In this document: positions 37,271-44,592 of the stretch, in pieces | Layout of the letters: every line of letters starts with the position of its first letter | How positions within the stretch are numbered: the first letter of the stretch is position 1 | Source of the DNA: an uncultured Bacteroidales bacterium | Lineage (GTDB): Bacteria; Bacteroidota; Bacteroidia; Bacteroidales; Muribaculaceae | Direction: 5' to 3' | NCBI GenBank assembly: GCA_902792435.1 | Contig: CADAZN010000004.1 | Coordinates: 22,052-86,051, forward strand | Length of the DNA stretch: 64,000 nucleotides | Translations under genes and position numbers: made by a program | Notes under the pieces: model-generated | The model's database searches: none | Told to the model about the DNA's origin: nothing | What the model saw: the letters and a program-made list of their open reading frames with translations, nothing else

Positions 37271-38578
37271 ATGAGTAATCCAAATGTAAAACCTGCTACC
37301 GGCAAATTAGGTATCATGGTAGTTGGTCTGGGTGCAGTGAGCACCACATTCATGACTGGTGTCATGATGGCACGCAAGGGTCTGGCAAAGCCTGTTGGCT
37401 CAATGACTCAGTACGACAAAATCCGCGTTGGTCGCGGCGAGAACAAGAAATATCTACATTACAAAGACATCGTTCCCCTGGCAAAGCTTGACGACATCGT
37501 ATTTGCTGCTTGGGACGTATATCCCGCTAATGCCTATGAGAGTGCCATCAACGCTGAGGTGCTCAAAGAGAAAGACATCGAGCCCGTAAAGGACGAATTG
37601 CTCAAGATTAAGCCCCTCAAGGCAGCTTTTGACAAGAACTATGCAAAGCGCCTCGATGGCGATAACGTAAAGCAATGCAAGGACCGTTGGGACATGATGG
37701 AGCAAGTGCGTGAGGACATCCGCAACTTCAAGAAAGAGACTGGCGTTGACCGCGTTGTAGTACTCTGGGCTGCATCAACCGAGATTTACGTAGCTCCCGA
37801 CAAGAACGTACATTATAAACTTGACCAGCTCGAGGCTGCCATGAAGGCTAACGATGTTGACCACATCTCGCCATCTATGTGCTATGCCTATGCAGCACTC
37901 AAGGAGGGCTGCCCATTCATCATGGGTGCTCCTAACACCACCGTTGACATCCCCGCTATGTGGCAACTGAGCGACGAGACCAAGGTGCCCATCGCAGGTA
38001 AGGACTTCAAGACTGGCCAAACTCTCGTTAAGAGTGGTTTCGCTCCTATCATCGGCGCCCGCATGCTCGGCATGAGCGGTTGGTTCTCAACCAACATCCT
38101 GGGTAACCGTGACGGACTCGTACTTGACGAGCCAGCAAACTTCCGTACTAAAGAGGTGAGCAAGCTCTCTACTCTCGAGTCAATCCTCGTAGCCGAGGAT
38201 CAGCCCGATCTTTACAGCGACATCTTCCACAAAGTGCGCATCAACTACTACCCACCTCGCAACGACAACAAAGAGGGCTGGGACAACATCGACATCTTTG
38301 GTTGGATGGGCTATCCAATGCAGATCAAGATCAACTTCCTGTGCCGCGACTCTATCTTGGCAGCTCCCCTCTGCCTCGACCTGTGCTTGCTCATGGACCT
38401 TGCTCACCGCGCCGGCCGCTATGGCACTCAGCGCTTCCTGAGCTTCTTCCTCAAGAGCCCACAGCACGACTACACAGTTGACGAGGTTCCCGTTAACCAC
38501 CTGTTCCAGCAGCACACAATGCTGAAGAACGCCATCCGCGAGATGGGCGGTTACGAGGCCGACGAGGAAATCGATTAA
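37271..38578 (+). CDS. Inositol-3-phosphate synthase (MIPS)
   Basis: A 435-residue synthase. It converts glucose-6-phosphate to myo-inositol phosphate using NAD. The Rossmann motif MVVGLGAVSTTF is at 16-27. VVLWAASTEIY, FIMGAPNTTVDIPA, GKDFKTGQTLVKSGFAP, NILGNRDG, VRINYYPPRNDNKEGWDNID and FLCRDSILAAPLCLDL are characteristic MIPS blocks including the catalytic lysines. In Bacteroides thetaiotaomicron a MIPS gene sits in the inositol-lipid cluster. Here it is 477 bp downstream of a matching operon, under its own promoter and with its own terminator. Confidence 0.95.
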   Translation: MSNPNVKPATGKLGIMVVGLGAVSTTFMTGVMMARKGLAKPVGSMTQYDKIRVGRGENKKYLHYKDIVPLAKLDDIVFAAWDVYPANAYESAINAEVLKEKDIEPVKDELLKIKPLKAAFDKNYAKRLDGDNVKQCKDRWDMMEQVREDIRNFKKETGVDRVVVLWAASTEIYVAPDKNVHYKLDQLEAAMKANDVDHISPSMCYAYAALKEGCPFIMGAPNTTVDIPAMWQLSDETKVPIAGKDFKTGQTLVKSGFAPIIGARMLGMSGWFSTNILGNRDGLVLDEPANFRTKEVSKLSTLESILVAEDQPDLYSDIFHKVRINYYPPRNDNKEGWDNIDIFGWMGYPMQIKINFLCRDSILAAPLCLDLCLLMDLAHRAGRYGTQRFLSFFLKSPQHDYTVDEVPVNHLFQQHTMLKNAIREMGGYEADEEID

Positions 38579-38612
38579 TCACCGAAGCAACACTAACTTC
38601 CTAAATATTTGG

Positions 38613-38650
38613 GTGAGCCTCCCACTCCACAGTGCGAGGCTCACTTTTTC
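38613..38650 (+). terminator. Terminator of inositol-3-phosphate synthase
   Basis: GTGAGCCTC (38613-38621) pairs with GAGGCTCAC (38636-38644), followed by TTTTTC. Confidence 0.85.
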
Positions 38651-38705
38651 AAAAAATAAGACCAATTGGTTACGAATCCATCGCAACCATCAACCGACTA
38701 CTAAA

Positions 38706-39041
38706 ATGTCTTTTACCGATCAAGAAAAAATCGCTATTGTCAGCCTGCTTATCGAAATGGCAAATGCCGACAACATCATAGCCTATGAGGAGATGATAAC
38801 CATCAACCTCATTTGTCGCAGGCTCGAGATTGACCACAACTCATTTGTTGTGGGCCACGGACTAAAGTGCGAGCATGCCATCGAGGTTCTCAAATCCATG
38901 AACGATGACAAGAAGCTCCAGCTAGCCAACATGATGGTTGAAATCATCGACAGCGACAACCAAGTTGATGACAACGAGATTGCGCTGCTCAACCACGCCT
39001 GCAAGAGAATAGGGATCGAAGATTTGCTACAACAATCTTAA
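38706..39041 (+). CDS. TerB-like small helical protein
   Basis: A 111-residue all-helical protein starting at MSFTDQEK. An upstream start at 38613 would lie in the MIPS terminator hairpin and is rejected. Acidic, regularly spaced MANADNIIAYEEM and IDSDNQVDDNEIALL segments resemble the metal-binding helices of TerB/DjlA-N domains. In Bacteroidetes such proteins are common singletons of unknown role. No Ter-system partner is nearby. Confidence 0.7.
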   Translation: MSFTDQEKIAIVSLLIEMANADNIIAYEEMITINLICRRLEIDHNSFVVGHGLKCEHAIEVLKSMNDDKKLQLANMMVEIIDSDNQVDDNEIALLNHACKRIGIEDLLQQS

Positions 39042-39084
39042 CAGCGAGACATTACTTTTTTTAATAAAATTATGTGCTCTTTTT

Positions 39085-39116
39085 TTTGAATTTCTCAACT
39101 AAAACACATAATTTTG
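39085..39116 (+). promoter_or_regulatory. Promoter of the 138-residue lipoprotein gene
   Basis: TTTG at 39085-39088 and TAATTTTG at 39109-39116, spaced 20 bp. It places transcription start downstream of the in-frame ATG at 39074, supporting the ATG at 39146. Confidence 0.7.
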
Positions 39117-39145
39117 CACTCTGTTCACTGACAAGACACCACAGA

Positions 39146-39562
39146 ATGAGGAAAATAATACTGCCAATAATTGCACTTGTAATTGTCTCGGTTGCAACAA
39201 CCACAACATTCACCAGTTGCAAAAACGAGACAAAGCACACCGACACCCTGCTCGACACTGCGGTAATCGCACCAAAACCCGTTGAGATGACTGCCGACAG
39301 CGACAGCGCAAACGTTGAAAACGGTAAAGCTTTGATAACCAAAAGTGTTACAGGAAAAGTCACCGATGGAGCTATGAACAGCGTTTTCATTGAAGTAGCT
39401 CCCGACAGCACAGTAGAATTCTCCTATCCTGAGCTCAACCGAAATGACAACAAGGTGTTCTATAATTGGCAAATTGACGACATGATTACAGTCACCTATG
39501 TTGAGACCACACGCAACGGAGAGCCCCTTGACAGTGTAGTGAGCATTCAGAAGGCACAATAA
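39146..39562 (+). CDS. Small lipoprotein of unknown function
   Basis: A 138-residue lipoprotein with hydrophobic leader and lipobox TFTSC-KNET (Cys25). The mature part has a Thr/Asp-rich linker, then a compact beta domain (TGKVTDGAMNSVFIEVAPDSTVEFSYPEL...IDDMITVTYVET) that looks like a small OB- or Ig-type barrel. I do not recognise a named family. It is a single gene directly upstream of the tRNA gene. Confidence 0.75.
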   Translation: MRKIILPIIALVIVSVATTTTFTSCKNETKHTDTLLDTAVIAPKPVEMTADSDSANVENGKALITKSVTGKVTDGAMNSVFIEVAPDSTVEFSYPELNRNDNKVFYNWQIDDMITVTYVETTRNGEPLDSVVSIQKAQ

Positions 39563-39609
39563 ACGGCCTGAAACGCAACAACATAAGAAAGTACCAACAC
39601 ACTTTGACT

Positions 39610-39685
39610 GCGGTAGTAGCTCAGTTGGTAGAGCATCAGCTTCCCAAGCTGAGGGTCGCGGGTTCGAGTCCCGTCTACCGCTCCA
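39610..39685 (+). tRNA. tRNA-Gly (anticodon CCC)
   Basis: Cloverleaf: acceptor GCGGTAG/CTACCGC (7 bp), D stem GCTC/GAGC, anticodon stem TCAGC/GCTGA with loop TTCCCAA (anticodon CCC), T arm GCGGG-TTCGAGT-CCCGT, discriminator T and an encoded CCA end. Confidence 0.97.
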
Positions 39686-39818
39686 TTAATAAGGAAGTGC
39701 ATGCTATCACACATATCAAATAAGGCTTCCTTATCCACAATATTACAACAATTAAAGACTTAGCCAGTGCATTAAACAGCATATACCATGTAAGGCACAA
39801 CAAAAATGAAATATACTT

Positions 39819-40025
39819 ATGAAATCTACTAAGAAAACATTACTCATTGGATTGCTGACCATTGTCATTGCCTGTGGCGTTACGCCTATATTCACTAGCT
39901 GTAATCGCGCCATGACCTTCGAGGACGGCATGTTTGACTATGACGACATCTATAACGATGATGCTACAAACGACACATTCCAAATTAATAGCGAGGTTGA
40001 CAACGACGACCAAGAAAGATACTAA
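39819..40025 (+). CDS. Tiny acidic lipoprotein
   Basis: A 68-residue protein with a hydrophobic leader and lipobox IFTSC-NRAM (Cys28). The mature part is about 40 residues, very rich in Asp, Asn and Glu (FDYDDIYNDDATND). There is no recognisable domain. A short inverted repeat TAACTGGTT/AACCAGTTA (40028-40055) and a terminator follow. It lies 134 bp after the tRNA gene. Confidence 0.65.
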   Translation: MKSTKKTLLIGLLTIVIACGVTPIFTSCNRAMTFEDGMFDYDDIYNDDATNDTFQINSEVDNDDQERY

Positions 40026-40065
40026 CGTAACTGGTTCACACATCTCAACCAGTTAACTCAACGAA

Positions 40066-40095
40066 AAAAAGATGCCCATTGCAAGGCATCTTTTT
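40066..40095. terminator. Terminator between tiny lipoprotein and rSAM gene
   Basis: AAAAAGATGCC (40066-40076) pairs with GGCATCTTTTT (40085-40095). It can serve both the plus-strand lipoprotein and the minus-strand rSAM gene. Confidence 0.85.
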
Positions 40096-40124
40096 ATGTT
40101 TTATTGGTGCATGCACCAAGACTA

Positions 40125-41186
40125 TCACCTAGATTTGCAGATGGTGAGATAGTTGCAGTGCAGCATCTCGCCCTCGTCGCCACGCAGGTGGAAAGGTCCG
40201 CCGGCACACCAATCCCAAGCTTTGCAGCGAGCACACTCGTCGCGCTTGAGCCATCGCCGGTTGCGCATCTGCTCGAATCGGTTGTTCCACACGTCACTGA
40301 AACTGTCACGATAAATATTGCCCTGCGCATAGTGTGAACGAATGCTCATGCATCCACTTATATCTCCATTGGCAAGCACCGAAGCTGTCATGGTGCCAGC
40401 GTCGCAGCGATAGATGTGGCTTCTCACTTCACCCTCATAGTCGCCCAAAAAGCCCTCGCAGCTGTAGGACAAGTCAATATCGCCCTGCTTGCGAGTCTCA
40501 ACGATAAAGTCCATGAGCTCAACATATTGCTCTGGACTGAGAAAGAGCTCGGAATTAAGTTTTGCCCTCCCCTGAGGGAAGATTGTAAAGATTCGCCATT
40601 TTTTCACACCAATATCTATAAGATACTGCTTGAGTTGTGGCAAAGTGGAAAAATTGCGCTGGCTCACACAAGTGATAATATCCCATAGCAAACCTTTGGT
40701 CCTAACCAAAAGCTTCACAGAGCTGATGGTAGCGTCAAACGAGTTGCCACGCAGCCAGTTGTGTTCTGCCTCAAGTCCATCGAGGCTCACAGCTATTGTG
40801 CGCAGCCCGGCATCGAGAAGCTTGCTGAGCATATCCTCGGTTAGCAACACGCCATTTGTCACAGTACCCCAAGAGAAGCCACGGTCGGTAATCGCTTTGC
40901 CACACTCCACGATGTCGGGACGAACGAGCGGCTCACCACCCACTGTGTTGACAAGCACACGATTAGGAGCAGTCATCGTTGCCACATCGTCAAGCACTTT
41001 CAAGAAATGGTCTAAGGGCATATCGGGAGTCGCTGAAATCTTGCGGCAGTCACTACCACAATGGCGGCACGAGAGGTTGCAACGCAGTGTGCACTCCCAG
41101 AACAGCTGCCGCAGCGGATGGTTTTTCTCAAGCCAACGACGCTCACGGCGCGTGTTCTCCAGGTCGATGAGCTGTCGTGTTCTCAT
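40125..41186 (-). CDS. Radical SAM/SPASM enzyme of an rSAM/lipoprotein pair
   Basis: A 353-residue radical SAM enzyme. The 4Fe-4S motif CNLSCRHC has Cys36, Cys40 and Cys43. VNTVGGEPLVRPD, GTVTNGVLL and AVSLDGLEAEHNWLRG are typical of peptide-modifying rSAM enzymes. The C-terminal SPASM region has several further Cys (YRCDAGTM, DISGCMS, CARCKAWDWCAGG, LHCN) for auxiliary clusters. It starts inside the stop of a short lipoprotein gene (ATGA). As I recall, NCBI models TIGR04133/TIGR04134 describe such an rSAM plus lipoprotein pair in Bacteroidetes; assignment to them is untested here. It probably installs a post-translational modification on the lipoprotein. Confidence 0.9.
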   Translation of the reverse strand: MRTRQLIDLENTRRERRWLEKNHPLRQLFWECTLRCNLSCRHCGSDCRKISATPDMPLDHFLKVLDDVATMTAPNRVLVNTVGGEPLVRPDIVECGKAITDRGFSWGTVTNGVLLTEDMLSKLLDAGLRTIAVSLDGLEAEHNWLRGNSFDATISSVKLLVRTKGLLWDIITCVSQRNFSTLPQLKQYLIDIGVKKWRIFTIFPQGRAKLNSELFLSPEQYVELMDFIVETRKQGDIDLSYSCEGFLGDYEGEVRSHIYRCDAGTMTASVLANGDISGCMSIRSHYAQGNIYRDSFSDVWNNRFEQMRNRRWLKRDECARCKAWDWCAGGPFHLRGDEGEMLHCNYLTICKSR

Positions 41187-41428
41187 AGGACGCTATCAGT
41201 TTTATGTTTCTTTTCCACTTCGACATTGTTGACGGCCGAGTCGATGCCGTTAACTGGTGGACCATATACATCTTCCACCACTTCGGGTGTGTCGGGCGAA
41301 ACGGGAGGAGGTCCATAAACTTTGGGAGAATTGAAGACTCCACCACATGACGACAATCCCAGCATGGCACCTATTGCCACCAAGGCTCTAACACTCCACT
41401 TCTTTATTACAAATACCGATTTATTCAT
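41183..41428 (-). CDS. Small lipoprotein, likely substrate of the adjacent rSAM enzyme
   Basis: An 81-residue precursor with a basic N region, hydrophobic leader and lipobox LGLSSC-GGVF (Cys28). The mature peptide is only 54 residues and contains two copies of VYGPP (37-41 and 54-58) separated by a Pro/Glu-rich stretch, then a charged tail ending KKHKTDSVL. The repeated Tyr-Gly-Pro-Pro cores are obvious candidates for modification sites. It is first in a two-gene operon with the rSAM enzyme, whose start overlaps its stop. The promoter contains a perfect 10-bp-arm palindrome. Final location is a membrane, probably the outer membrane. Confidence 0.82.
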   Translation of the reverse strand: MNKSVFVIKKWSVRALVAIGAMLGLSSCGGVFNSPKVYGPPPVSPDTPEVVEDVYGPPVNGIDSAVNNVEVEKKHKTDSVL

Positions 41429-41451
41429 TGCCCTATAGTTTAGTTACAGCG

Positions 41452-41486
41452 CAAATATACAACATTTGCAACACACTTGCAAATGT
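41452..41486 (-). promoter_or_regulatory. Promoter and palindromic operator of the rSAM/lipoprotein operon
   Basis: Minus-strand TATATTTG (41459-41452) is the -7 box and TTTG (41483-41480) the -33 box, spaced 20 bp. Overlapping the -33 region is a perfect inverted repeat ACATTTGCAA (41462-41471) and TTGCAAATGT (41477-41486) with a 5-nt spacer, well placed for a repressor. Confidence 0.65.
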
Positions 41487-41547
41487 CAAGAAACTAAAGG
41501 TTTACCAAAATCAACGAAAAAACTAATGCCAGTAGAGAAATTATCAC

Positions 41548-41555
41548 TACCTTTG
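41548..41555 (+). promoter_or_regulatory. -7 box of the 52-residue membrane protein gene
   Basis: TACCTTTG, 21 bp before the ATG at 41577. It excludes the longer frame starting at 41466. Confidence 0.6.
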
Positions 41556-41576
41556 CACACCAATAATCACATAATT

Positions 41577-41735
41577 ATGGACACACTCACATCTTTTGCC
41601 AAAGAGAACTTTCAGCTGATAACCCTATTTGTTGGCCTACTTGGTGTGCTTATAGGCATTTGGACCGTCTATTATGAGGTAAAGAAAAAACGCAAGCCGA
41701 AAGACAAGCAAAAGAAAGAGCAAAGCAACGACTAA
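41577..41735 (+). CDS. 52-residue single-pass membrane protein
   Basis: MDTLTSFAKENFQ leads into one hydrophobic helix (LITLFVGLLGVLIGIWTVYY) followed by a very basic tail (EVKKKRKPKDKQKKEQ). No family is recognised. It is first in a same-strand run with a TfoX-like gene (20 bp later), an Imm32-like gene and a YitT gene. The start follows a good -7 box. Confidence 0.6.
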   Translation: MDTLTSFAKENFQLITLFVGLLGVLIGIWTVYYEVKKKRKPKDKQKKEQSND

Positions 41736-41754
41736 GTTCAAAATCGACTTCAAC

Positions 41755-42096
41755 ATGGCAAGCAATCCAAGTTTCGCTCAGTATATTGCCGACCAATGCG
41801 CTGGAGCTGGAGAAATTATCACCAAGAAGATGTTTGGAGAATATGGAATCTACTGCGATGGCAAGATTTTCGGCCTCATATGCGATGATTGTTTCTACCT
41901 GAAACCCACCGACACTGTGAAACCATTGCTGCGCAATGTTGAGCTGCGACCGCCATATGAGGGTGCTAAAGACTATTTCTTCATTGCCGACGTAGATGAC
42001 CACGACTATCTCTCGCTGTTGGTGCGTGAAACATGCAGAGCTTTGCCCGAGCCAAAAGTCAAGAAAAGAAATAAATCATCTTCAAAAAAAGACTGA
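41755..42096 (+). CDS. TfoX/Sxy N-terminal domain protein
   Basis: A 113-residue protein matching the TfoX N-terminal domain: KKMFGEYGIYCDGKIFGLIC, DCFYLKPTD and RPPYEGAKDYFFI. In Gammaproteobacteria the two-domain Sxy/TfoX activates competence genes with CRP. This one lacks the C-terminal domain and ends in a basic tail (KVKKRNKSSSKKD), so that function cannot be transferred directly. It lies 3 bp upstream of the next gene. Confidence 0.88.
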   Translation: MASNPSFAQYIADQCAGAGEIITKKMFGEYGIYCDGKIFGLICDDCFYLKPTDTVKPLLRNVELRPPYEGAKDYFFIADVDDHDYLSLLVRETCRALPEPKVKKRNKSSSKKD

Positions 42097-42099
42097 GCT

Positions 42100-42315
42100 A
42101 TGAATCTAAAATGGGAAGACGGATTCACTATCGCCGTTAGTGTTCAAGACAACACCGTGACACTCAGGGCTAATCGCGAAGGACTCTTGTCACTCGCCAA
42201 CCACCTGGTGACAATAGCACAAGACCCAGCAACGGGCGCCCACTTGCACCTCGACCAACACAACTCCCTTGAAGAGAACTCAGCCGAACTTATAATAGAA
42301 AAAATAAACAACTAA
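42100..42315 (+). CDS. Imm32-like small protein
   Basis: A 71-residue protein. NREGLLSLANHLVTIAQD and HLHLDQHNSLEENSAELII closely resemble the short Imm32 immunity-protein type found in Bacteroides. No polymorphic toxin or effector gene is adjacent, so immunity is not established. It may be an orphan immunity gene or a housekeeping relative. It is translationally close to the TfoX-like gene (3-bp gap) and 12 bp before yitT. Confidence 0.65.
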   Translation: MNLKWEDGFTIAVSVQDNTVTLRANREGLLSLANHLVTIAQDPATGAHLHLDQHNSLEENSAELIIEKINN

Positions 42316-42327
42316 AACACTTATAAA

Positions 42328-43281
42328 ATGTTAGATCTCAACAAAAAGAAAAAACTTAAACGTGAGATTATCGCCTACTTCCTGCTCGTGATAGGAAGCG
42401 CATTGTTTGCCATTGGCGACGTGATGTTTGTGAACCCCTACCTCATGGCTCCCGGTGGAACCTACGGTCTTAGTAACGTGTTTAACACCGTGTGGCCCTG
42501 GAAGATTTCGTATTATGCCATCTGCATGGATGTGCCATTGCTCATCATAGGCACTTGGATTTTGGGACCAAAATTCGGCATCAAGACCATCATATCCACA
42601 GCCTTGATTTTCGTCTTCACATTCATCCTTGAGAGCTGGTGGGGCTACAACCCCGTGCTCCACGATGGCGACATCGTTAGCCAGGCTACCAACTCGTCGA
42701 TGGTTCCCATTCCCCACGACGGTGGTTGGTTCTCACCCGACTATTTCCTCAACACAGTGGTTGCCGGTCTCATCTACGGCGTTGCCATTGGTCTGATTTT
42801 CCGTTCTGGAGCCACCAGCGGCGGTAGCGACATCATCTCGATGATATTGCACAAGTACACCAAAATTTCGCTTGGCACTCTCGTAATGATTGTAGACGGC
42901 ATCATCACCCTGAGCACACTTGTTGCTTTTGGCGACATTCGCCTGCCCATCTACTCAGTGATTGTCATCTTCATTGAGGGTAAGGTTATTGACCTCGTGG
43001 TCGACGGAATGAAGAGCTACAAGACCATGTTCATCATCACCGACAACCCCGAGCCAGTGCGCGATTTCATCATCAACAACCTGAAGCGTGGCGGCACCTG
43101 CATCACTGGTAGCGGACTCTACAAGGGCAACGAGCGCAAGATGGTGTATGTGACCCTCGACCGCGCCGACATGATTAAGCTGCGCTCGGTGCTTTATCGC
43201 ATTGATCCCAAGGCTTTTGTGAACATCATGGAGAGCAGCGAAATCCTGGGCCAGGGCTTCCGCCGCCTGCCACAAGAATAG
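42328..43281 (+). CDS. YitT family membrane protein (DUF2179)
   Basis: A 317-residue protein. About six membrane helices, with the family loop FRSGATSGGSDIISMILHKY, are followed by a cytoplasmic DUF2179 domain (KSYKTMFIITDNPEPVRDFI, GGTCITGSGLYKGNERKMVY). YitT proteins are thought to be transporters or channels; the substrate is unknown. It is last in the small 41577-43281 unit. A hairpin terminator follows. Confidence 0.92.
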   Translation: MLDLNKKKKLKREIIAYFLLVIGSALFAIGDVMFVNPYLMAPGGTYGLSNVFNTVWPWKISYYAICMDVPLLIIGTWILGPKFGIKTIISTALIFVFTFILESWWGYNPVLHDGDIVSQATNSSMVPIPHDGGWFSPDYFLNTVVAGLIYGVAIGLIFRSGATSGGSDIISMILHKYTKISLGTLVMIVDGIITLSTLVAFGDIRLPIYSVIVIFIEGKVIDLVVDGMKSYKTMFIITDNPEPVRDFIINNLKRGGTCITGSGLYKGNERKMVYVTLDRADMIKLRSVLYRIDPKAFVNIMESSEILGQGFRRLPQE

Positions 43282-43360
43282 ACATTATTTGAACATAAGG
43301 ACTATGCGCATTTCGCAATTTGTGTAACGCATTTTGCGAAATCAAAAAACAAAGGCTTGA

Positions 43361-43394
43361 CAACCGCGCCACTGATAAGGCGCGGTTGTTTTTT
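43361..43394 (+). terminator. Terminator of yitT unit
   Basis: Perfect arms CAACCGCGCC (43361-43370) and GGCGCGGTTG (43379-43388), then six T. A second inverted repeat ATTTCGCAA/TTGCGAAAT lies upstream at 43310-43342. The rest of 43282-43596 is AT-rich, with the moxR promoter. Confidence 0.9.
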
Positions 43395-43529
43395 CTAGTG
43401 TGAATATACATGTGAATGGGTAAAACACGAGTTTTCCTAACAAAGAACTCTGGTTTAACTTTAATGATGTTAAAATTGCGTTATAATTAACATTTATAAC
43501 ACAAAAACATTATTAATTAACGATGAATA

Positions 43530-43562
43530 TTGTGTTCTTTATAATTCAAAATAATAATTTTG
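43530..43562 (+). promoter_or_regulatory. Promoter of the moxR-bat operon
   Basis: TTG at 43530-43532 and TAATTTTG at 43555-43562, 34 bp before the moxR ATG. Confidence 0.6.
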
Positions 43563-43596
43563 CACATACAAAAGAACTAAAAACAAAAATGTTATT

Positions 43597-44592
43597 ATGA
43601 ATGATACAGTAAACATTCGCGAACTGAACGAAATCATTGCCACAAAGAGTAATTTTGTGAACACAATCACTCAGGGCATGAACCAAACTATAGTAGGCCA
43701 GAAACACCTAATTGACTCATTGTTGATTGCTTTGCTAGCCAACGGGCACGTTCTTCTTGAAGGTGTGCCAGGACTTGCAAAGACATTGGCCATCAAGACA
43801 CTTTCTCAAATCATCGATGCCAAGTATAGCCGCATCCAATTCACACCCGACTTGCTGCCTGCCGACGTTATTGGCACCATGGTCTACAGTATTCAGAAGG
43901 AAAAATTTGAGGTAAAGAAAGGCCCTATTTTCGCCAACTTTGTCCTTGCTGATGAGATTAACCGTGCACCCGCCAAGGTTCAGAGTGCTTTGCTCGAAGC
44001 CATGCAAGAGCGCCAGGTGACAATTGGCGACAACACTTTCGCCCTTGATGAGCCATTCCTTGTGATGGCGACCCAAAACCCAATTGAGCAGGAAGGAACC
44101 TATCCATTGCCCGAGGCGCAAGTCGACCGATTCCTAATGAAAGTGGTGATTGGTTACCCCAACCGTCAGGAAGAGAAAGAAATCATTAGAATGAACATAG
44201 GCAGTGAGCAACCCAAAGTCACCCCATTGGTAACACCTGCCGACATTGTTGACGTGCGCAACGTGGTGAAACAAATCTACATTGACGAGAAGATAGAACG
44301 ATATATCGTTGACATCGTGTTTGCCACACGCTTCCCCGACGACTACGGCCTGAGCGACCTGAAGAGCATCATTTCGTTTGGCTCATCGCCACGCGCCTCA
44401 ATCAGTATGGCACTCGCAGCACGCGCCTACGCCTTCCTGCGTGGACGTGGTTATGTGATACCCGAGGACGTGCGCGCCGTGTGCCACGACGTGATGCGCC
44501 ACCGACTTGGCCTAAGCTACGAGGCCGAGGCCAACAATATCACTGCCGACGAGATTATCAGCAATATCCTCGACAAGATTGCAGTACCTTAA
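43597..44592 (+). CDS. MoxR family AAA+ ATPase
   Basis: A 331-residue AAA+ chaperone-like ATPase. Walker A GVPGLAKT is near residues 54-61, Walker B VLADEINRAPAKVQSALLEAMQE is conserved, and QNPIEQEGTYPLPEAQ is the sensor-1 region. MoxR ATPases work with vWA proteins to assemble or activate complexes. Here it heads a seven-gene operon with DUF58 and Bat proteins, the usual Bacteroidetes order. The gap to the next gene (74 bp) contains an AGTTAATAGTTCATAG repeat. Confidence 0.96.
   Translation: MNDTVNIRELNEIIATKSNFVNTITQGMNQTIVGQKHLIDSLLIALLANGHVLLEGVPGLAKTLAIKTLSQIIDAKYSRIQFTPDLLPADVIGTMVYSIQKEKFEVKKGPIFANFVLADEINRAPAKVQSALLEAMQERQVTIGDNTFALDEPFLVMATQNPIEQEGTYPLPEAQVDRFLMKVVIGYPNRQEEKEIIRMNIGSEQPKVTPLVTPADIVDVRNVVKQIYIDEKIERYIVDIVFATRFPDDYGLSDLKSIISFGSSPRASISMALAARAYAFLRGRGYVIPEDVRAVCHDVMRHRLGLSYEAEANNITADEIISNILDKIAVP

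Follow-up and report, generated by a model that had tools for sequence, protein, structure and literature searches.

A radical SAM/SPASM enzyme of family TIGR04133 and a short two-VYGPP lipoprotein in a Muribaculaceae genome, with Tyr-Gly-x-Pro as the candidate site of modification

The window analysed here (the whole stretch of 64,000 nucleotides, from an uncultured bacterium of the Muribaculaceae) carries a two-gene unit in which a radical SAM (rSAM)/SPASM enzyme of family TIGR04133 is preceded by an 81-residue lipoprotein with two VYGPP motifs, and the VYG of these motifs is very probably modified by the enzyme before export. Over 132 TIGR04133 loci, Tyr-Gly-x-Pro (YGxP), carried on unrelated scaffolds, appears to be the common feature of the partner proteins, a feature that is new here. 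Excision of tyramine at VYG, with a predicted change of -135.08 Da per site, is put forward tentatively as the single most likely chemistry. The rSAM/lipoprotein pair is present in NCBIfam only as hypothetical equivalogs (TIGR04133/TIGR04134), and the survey gives it a concrete candidate target site and a predicted mass shift, which is sharper than the present family annotation.

Gene layout and the lipoprotein

The positions of the two genes and of their features are listed in Table 1. The overlap of the lipoprotein stop with the rSAM start, noted in the sequence-only reading, is a shared ATGA, and the description given there of an 81-residue lipoprotein with 54 mature residues and two VYGPP motifs was borne out by the ORF, by the lipobox LSSC at residues 25-28 (54 residues counted from Cys28) and by the two motifs, whose VYG is of the XYG type required of PlpX substrates. 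The ORFs that flank them (39819-40025 and 41466-41735) are both encoded on the opposite strand, which leaves the two genes as a unit of their own, in which no protease or exporter gene was seen. The first of these neighbours (+ strand, 68 aa) resembles a small lipoprotein, converges on the rSAM gene and has no NCBIfam or Pfam family match.

Table 1. Features of the two-gene unit (window coordinates)
Feature	Position	Strand	Remarks
Lipoprotein, proposed rSAM substrate	41183..41428	-	81-aa ORF; TIGR04134 14.0 bits (cut-off 39.8)
Signal peptide and lipobox, residues 1-28 (..VIKKWSVRALVAIGAMLGLSSC)	41345..41428	-	KKWxVR-type, as in both orphan lipoproteins of this genome
VYGPP copy 1, residues 37-41, proposed modification site	41306..41320	-	also G000:C4:63358-63371
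VYGPP copy 2, residues 54-58, proposed modification site	41255..41269	-	also G000:C4:63307-63320
ATGA overlap, lipoprotein stop/rSAM start	41183..41186	-	putative translational coupling
TIGR04133 radical SAM/SPASM enzyme, 353 aa	40125..41186	-	490.6 bits (cut-off 425); Pfam; structure model
CX3CX2C radical SAM cluster motif, residues 36-43, then the family's GSDC	41058..41081	-	C36, C40, C43 and C47 conserved in 132/132 aligned rows (131 distinct)
C-terminal auxiliary cluster region, residues 243-344	40155..40460	-	C243, C261, C279, C318, C321, C327, C344 and H333, each in 132/132 rows

The lipoprotein falls below the curated cut-off of TIGR04134 (E 0.038) and has no Pfam domain over cut-off, and it occupies the place, directly upstream of a TIGR04133 gene, that is the positional criterion of TIGR04134. 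It had been described as shorter than the lipoproteins of the known pairing; this holds against the TIGR04134 model of 150 positions, but the length is not unique, since 30 of the 112 nearest YGxP partners in the survey have at most 100 aa. At most 54 mature residues are present in 10 of the 98 nearest partners with a lipobox, the window's included. Neither YG.P nor VYGPP was found in the background ORFs of the window (48 ORFs, 17,726 aa), and the background ORFs of related loci (106 ORFs, 37,940 aa) contained 10 YG.P and no VYGPP.

The enzyme

Assignment to the radical SAM/SPASM enzymes was confirmed by PF04055 (61.6 bits) and PF13186 (SPASM; 38.1 bits, gathering score 21.5), both over cut-off, and the match to TIGR04133 extends over profile positions 2-346 of 350. 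The usual SPASM domain has a seven-Cys pattern with CX2CX5CX3C; the window enzyme departs from it, the last Cys of CX3C being missing. Cys243 and His333 are invariant in the enzyme alignment, in which the window enzyme is present twice (WIN and L002) and from which the truncated L039 was left out. A structure model of residues 2-353 (pLDDT 88.0, pTM 0.88) is closest among solved folds to SuiB, anSMEcpe, ChlB, CteB and PqqE, which are SPASM enzymes of several chemistries, and a sequence comparison with proteins of solved structure places cytosylglucuronate decarboxylase and PqqE nearest to the enzyme, from which no chemistry can be deduced. On other models the enzyme scores 133.3 (AhbD), 130.2 (TIGR04053), 129.9 (NirJ2), 121.6 (TIGR04103; cut-off 725, not reached) and 114.3 bits (TIGR03913; cut-off 591.75, not reached).

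Survey of TIGR04133 loci

Three genome samples, each including the window's own genome, were searched for TIGR04133; matches over cut-off were present in 61 of 295 genomes at the level of the order, 28 of 198 at that of the family and 2 of 296 at that of the phylum. The nearest relatives of the window enzyme, up to 89% identical (the window's own record is possibly absent), come from MAGs of Muribaculaceae and of other Bacteroidales, many being of rumen origin. The survey comprised 132 loci, including the window's own and two from plasmids, which were made non-redundant by the first 300 residues of the enzyme, five duplicates being dropped; loci from the genome samples and from the own genome were scored against the TIGR04133 model, and a further set, apart from the plasmid loci, was obtained with the window enzyme as tblastn query (45-89% identity).

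At 112 of the 132 loci the enzyme gene has beside it, on the same strand, an exported ORF with YG.P, a count drawn from partner lists that were read by eye in part and unchanged with tighter limits, and about 4 loci would be expected by chance (one 120-aa partner per locus, background 10 per 37,940 aa). L095 and L096, counted within the 112, are less sure, as the motif lies late in a downstream ORF. The remaining 20 loci comprise 4 with VYGPPP in a small ORF lacking a signal, 10 with YG variants such as YGPRP and YGPAP (L032, L033, L075, L079, L081, L082, L098, L113, L114, L135) and 6 in which no YG partner was found (L012, L064 with its flank cut short, L067, L100, L120, L146); the partner in L146 is a lipoprotein with CYAPAP instead of YG. 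In the four loci with the small ORF (L076, L078, L086, L087), (C)VYGPPP is encoded directly upstream of the enzyme without a signal peptide, and in L076 and L078 the product has a hydrophobic segment at its C terminus.

Partner and enzyme genes are tightly coupled, 51 of 100 upstream partners overlapping the enzyme gene and 91 ending at most 50 nt before its start. Among the 29 short-lipoprotein loci of the window clade (L005-L030, L036, L038, L039), a same-strand YGxP lipoprotein lies upstream in 28, L012 being the exception; the nearest one carries the motif once in 2 loci, twice in 21 and three times in 5. Ten of these 28 have a stop/start offset of +4, and two YGxP lipobox ORFs lie ahead of the enzyme within 400 nt in 12 of the 29. 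A TIGR04133/TIGR04134 pair (L162, 3583-5059; enzyme 451.4 bits) is located on a plasmid of Treponema saccharophilum beside an invertase-type recombinase, so the system is present outside Bacteroidota.

The YGxP motif

The motif occurs once in the nearest partner of 68 loci, twice in 37 and three times in 7. The residue before YGxP is V (115), E (28), M (23), C (19), K (18) or, in fewer cases, another, and x is P (111), T (43), S (20), V (14) or G (12). Tyr occupies the Tyr position in 182 of 184 motif-like partner sites and Gly fills the open position of VY?PP in all 100 cases, figures that are partly circular because partners were picked by YG.P/YGPP. Conservation of VYGPP in orthologous pairs, on which the sequence-only reading had staked its claim, was thus upheld for the core YGxP, which is kept far beyond close orthologs, but not for the residue before Tyr. 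From this conserved core and variable preceding residue, Tyr-Gly is the likely target.

The scaffolds that carry the motif include a CarboxypepD_reg-like protein (Parabacteroides distasonis), coiled-coil-like proteins as judged by eye (L055, L101), the short low-complexity proteins of the window clade, small lipoproteins in which KYGVP lies towards the C terminus (L109, L112) and an exported protein with a phosphopantetheine domain (L154). As the motif is constant while the scaffold changes, it behaves as a modification site would; no other feature was seen to be common to partners of unrelated build, and the presence of YGxP at 112 of 132 loci against the few expected argues for VYG as the modified site. 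In the 98 nearest partners with a lipobox, Tyr directly follows the lipobox Cys in 18 (offset 1), and YG lies at an offset of 5-17 from the lipidated Cys in 56.

Orphan lipoproteins and a paralogous enzyme in the same genome

Counts in the own genome rest on codon-pattern and family searches. The VYGPP codon pattern gave five matches in the 2.96 Mb assembly (two in a backward-read control), and all five fall within three lipoproteins with KKWxVR signal peptides. One orphan lipoprotein (L189, G000:C32, 3544-3789, + strand) has 81 aa and VYGPPP twice, and its gene is followed after approximately 40 nt by that of an OPT oligopeptide transporter; another (L190, G000:C35, 3949-4251, + strand) has 100 aa with VYGPP and VYGPR, and a C10 peptidase carrying a Spi inhibitor domain is encoded approximately 2 kb upstream of it. 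The two TIGR04133 genes of the genome are on contigs C4 and C21, and none was found on C32 or C35. A search with TIGR04134 at E up to 10 returned eight weak matches, none over cut-off, of which five are in frames of at least 558 aa and one (10.8 bits) is the C35 orphan; the window lipoprotein is absent from them.

In G447, a genome of the same genus, the C32-type lipoprotein is kept upstream of the same transporter (L222), and another lipoprotein is encoded on C13. These were the only two such lipoproteins among 13 stretches with the VYGPP pattern that lie apart from the enzyme, taken from enzyme-bearing genomes of the genus; of the other 11, four are an unrelated secreted protein of approximately 445 aa, which was found in four relatives, and seven are other proteins or spurious frames. 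The TIGR04133 enzyme may act in trans on lipoproteins encoded elsewhere, a thinly supported suggestion that, with 2 of 13 distant stretches, is a local observation and not a rule of the family. The pattern matched 62 times in the 28 family genomes with TIGR04133 and 84 times in the 170 without it, a co-occurrence that is not strong support because the pattern is blind to frame, the excess consists largely of operon partners and the distant stretches are mostly unrelated. No convincing VYGPP lipoprotein was found in 26 loci (of 30 kept) from TIGR04133-less genomes, the signal-like flags in L215 and L218 appearing spurious, and one further match in G464 was spurious.

Directly downstream of the second TIGR04133 enzyme of the own genome, an exported acyl-carrier-like protein (PF00550, 36.5 bits) with LMYGVRRPKVYGGPP is encoded (L154, G000:C21, 6073-6648, - strand). 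An acyl carrier protein bearing a signal peptide is unusual. Similar exported proteins with VYGPP adjoin the enzyme in four relatives. The reading that includes this protein as a target of the paralogous enzyme is, taken as a whole, possible but somewhat doubtful.

Proposed chemistry and alternatives

PlpX, which catalyses the reaction proposed here as part of PlpXY, is taken by us to be a member of TIGR04103. An enzyme encoded on a Nostoc plasmid scores 853.1 bits on TIGR04103 and lies adjacent to a Nif11 precursor that ends RGSIALYGLPPELF (ALYGLPPELF); a second Nif11 precursor at this locus has no YG. TIGR03913-type enzymes are approximately 48% identical to the Nostoc enzyme and fall in the same tree group, and of eight DUF1843 peptides encoded beside such enzymes (two Azospirillum loci, one Aureibacter) four have YG (MLYGG, KPYGV, RPYGP, QPYGAG) and four YM or YA. 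An Agathobacter rectalis plasmid (L163, 3719-3925 and 4007-5161) encodes an rSAM enzyme with 234.9 bits on TIGR04103. Ahead of it lies a short ORF, absent from the gene table of the plasmid, whose product ends in VMYGTGVRM, and after it an MFS transporter, so that this is possibly a spliceotide locus. HCGS at the SAM cluster is common to TIGR04133 and most of the PlpX group (HCAS in L157 and L159) and is not present in the NirJ, TIGR04053, TIGR04347, MftC and PqqE rows. In the tree, TIGR04133 and the PlpX group lie on one side of a 99/93 split from NirJ, TIGR04053, TIGR04347, an AhbD-like row, MftC and PqqE, a split that depends on rooting and on long-branched outgroups and that reduces to three unrooted groups without MftC and PqqE. 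XYG partners had been expected for all enzymes near PlpX, but no convincing one was present for 6 of the 11 PlpX-group rows (L150, L151, L155, L157, L159 and the Tropicibacter row). L150, L155, L157 and L159 are PlpX-side Bacteroidota rSAM enzymes, and their small upstream ORFs lack XYG (e.g. TLYLAEWQKRM.., VVMYLVIVDKLL..).

In the available text of the sources, PlpXY excises tyramine (C8H9NO, 135.0757 Da) from Xaa-Tyr-Gly, with MYG and LYG as natural sites and without need of the leader (PMC10533398, PMC11002830). Of 16 listed insertions of splice tags in FtsZ, two were accepted and 14 failed, so that a local tag is not always enough, and the tested tag AVAAGYGVVFP has no Pro two places after Tyr-Gly, so that x-Pro is not a splicease hallmark (PMC10533398, available text).

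Tyramine excision at VYG is suggested by the XYG of splicease substrates, the Nostoc ALYGLPPELF, the YG of half of the DUF1843 peptides, VMYGTGVRM, the shared HCGS and the tree split. Against it stand the TIGR04103 score far below cut-off, the slightly higher AhbD, TIGR04053 and NirJ2 scores, the differing auxiliary ligands, the XYG-less rows of the PlpX group, the second Nostoc precursor without YG and the open rooting. The weight given to it was lowered by the four DUF1843 peptides without YG, the Tropicibacter row without an XYG peptide and the failed FtsZ insertions, and the 18 partners in which Tyr directly follows the lipobox Cys are awkward for splicing at Xaa. In the mechanism proposed, the enzyme would act on the nascent lipoprotein, probably in the cytoplasm and ahead of export and lipidation, and modify each VYGPP in its Tyr-Gly region. 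Recognition would depend on a short local sequence, Xaa-Tyr-Gly-x-Pro, rather than on a fold, and the enzyme could thereby reach lipoproteins encoded elsewhere. The resulting lipid-anchored flexible tail would bear ketoamides, electrophiles that could inhibit proteases or combine with other nucleophiles of the envelope.

A different rSAM/SPASM reaction at VYGPP without backbone excision (a C-C or C-O cross-link of Tyr, or dehydrogenation or epimerisation at Tyr-Gly-Pro) is a serious possibility: the same motif evidence applies to it, the nearest folds span several chemistries, the auxiliary ligands are unlike those of the Nostoc enzyme and more than half of the PlpX-group rows show no XYG peptide. 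It would make the XYG match to splicease substrates a coincidence, and, judged by eye, no second conserved residue fit as a cross-link partner is present beyond Y, G and P, the residue before Tyr and x varying widely.

It is improbable that the lipoprotein is left unmodified, with YGxP as a docking or sorting tag and another molecule as the substrate of the enzyme. Export signals of Bacteroidota lipoproteins lie close to the lipidated Cys, as YG does in many partners, but the motif is also present in exported acyl-carrier-like proteins and in small proteins without a signal peptide, and its two or three copies in 44 of 112 nearest partners, together with its occurrence in orphan genes, are the behaviour of a substrate tag. 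A coincidental gene overlap, with VYGPP as a structural proline-rich repeat unlinked to the enzyme, would agree with the VYGPP of the unrelated secreted protein of approximately 445 aa; it is strongly disfavoured by the locus survey, in which YG.P accompanies the enzyme at most loci and about half of the upstream partners overlap its gene, and is extremely unlikely. Modification of VYG remains the preferred reading, and the modified, lipid-anchored, RiPP-like peptide first proposed stands in so far as an rSAM-modified lipoprotein is the best reading; 'RiPP-like' is loose, the system being closer to site-specific protein modification because no protease or exporter gene is in the unit and many partners are longer proteins.

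If splicing is true, gut and rumen Bacteroidales would have backbone beta-amino acids in their envelope, and TIGR04133 would be an enzyme, compact and independent of a leader, for placing ketoamides in proteins. Inhibition of proteases is reported for spliceotide products in the available text of the sources; lipid-anchored ketoamides might suit inhibition of serine or cysteine proteases, a weak suggestion. A C10 peptidase is encoded near the C35 lipoprotein and an OPT transporter next to the C32 one, which is consistent with such a role but proves nothing.

Comparison with known systems

TIGR04133, TIGR04134, VYGPP and the NCBI name of the partner were not found in the open-licence literature, to which the search was confined (subscription papers lay outside it), and the available parts of PMC10352776 and PMC8939145 contain no TIGR04133 system. 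Compared with the structures of SuiB, anSMEcpe, ChlB and CteB, the window enzyme is 15-18% identical in the respective rows, and its model has approximately 25 residues before the first barrel strand, leaving no N-terminal domain of the size of an RRE.

The system resembles PlpXY (Pleurocapsa) and the Nostoc TIGR04103 locus in having a SPASM rSAM enzyme and an XYG target, and the Nostoc precursor and the tag PIRPxYGLPI, in the available text of PMC10533398 and PMC11002830, also have Pro two places after Tyr-Gly. It differs in that there is no Nif11 leader, the product is a lipoprotein, the enzyme is far below the TIGR04103 cut-off and, relative to the Nostoc enzyme, the auxiliary ligands include an extra Cys243 and lack the CX3C cysteine. 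A tblastn search of window positions 38001-44000 with the 71-aa protein encoded after the Nostoc enzyme (PlpY-like by position) gave nothing at E 1, a search that a diverged or distant partner could escape. The DUF1843 partners of the TIGR03913 'GDL motif' maturase are, unlike the window lipoprotein, small peptides without a signal sequence.

The closest known system is the TIGR04133/TIGR04134 pair, with which the unit shares an enzyme over cut-off and a lipoprotein encoded directly upstream with overlapping stop and start. Canonical long TIGR04134 partners also carry YG.P, namely EYGSP in P. distasonis (207.1 bits) and CYGMP in T. saccharophilum (43.7 bits); the window lipoprotein differs from them in its 81 aa, its two VYGPP, its 14.0 bits and its lack of a Pfam domain over cut-off. 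The pairing itself is catalogued, the enzyme passing TIGR04133, and the short, repeat-bearing substrate is a variant within it. Judged from their sequences, short lipoproteins with several VYGPP, some of them encoded away from the enzyme, appear to be a new variant of the substrate of this known family.
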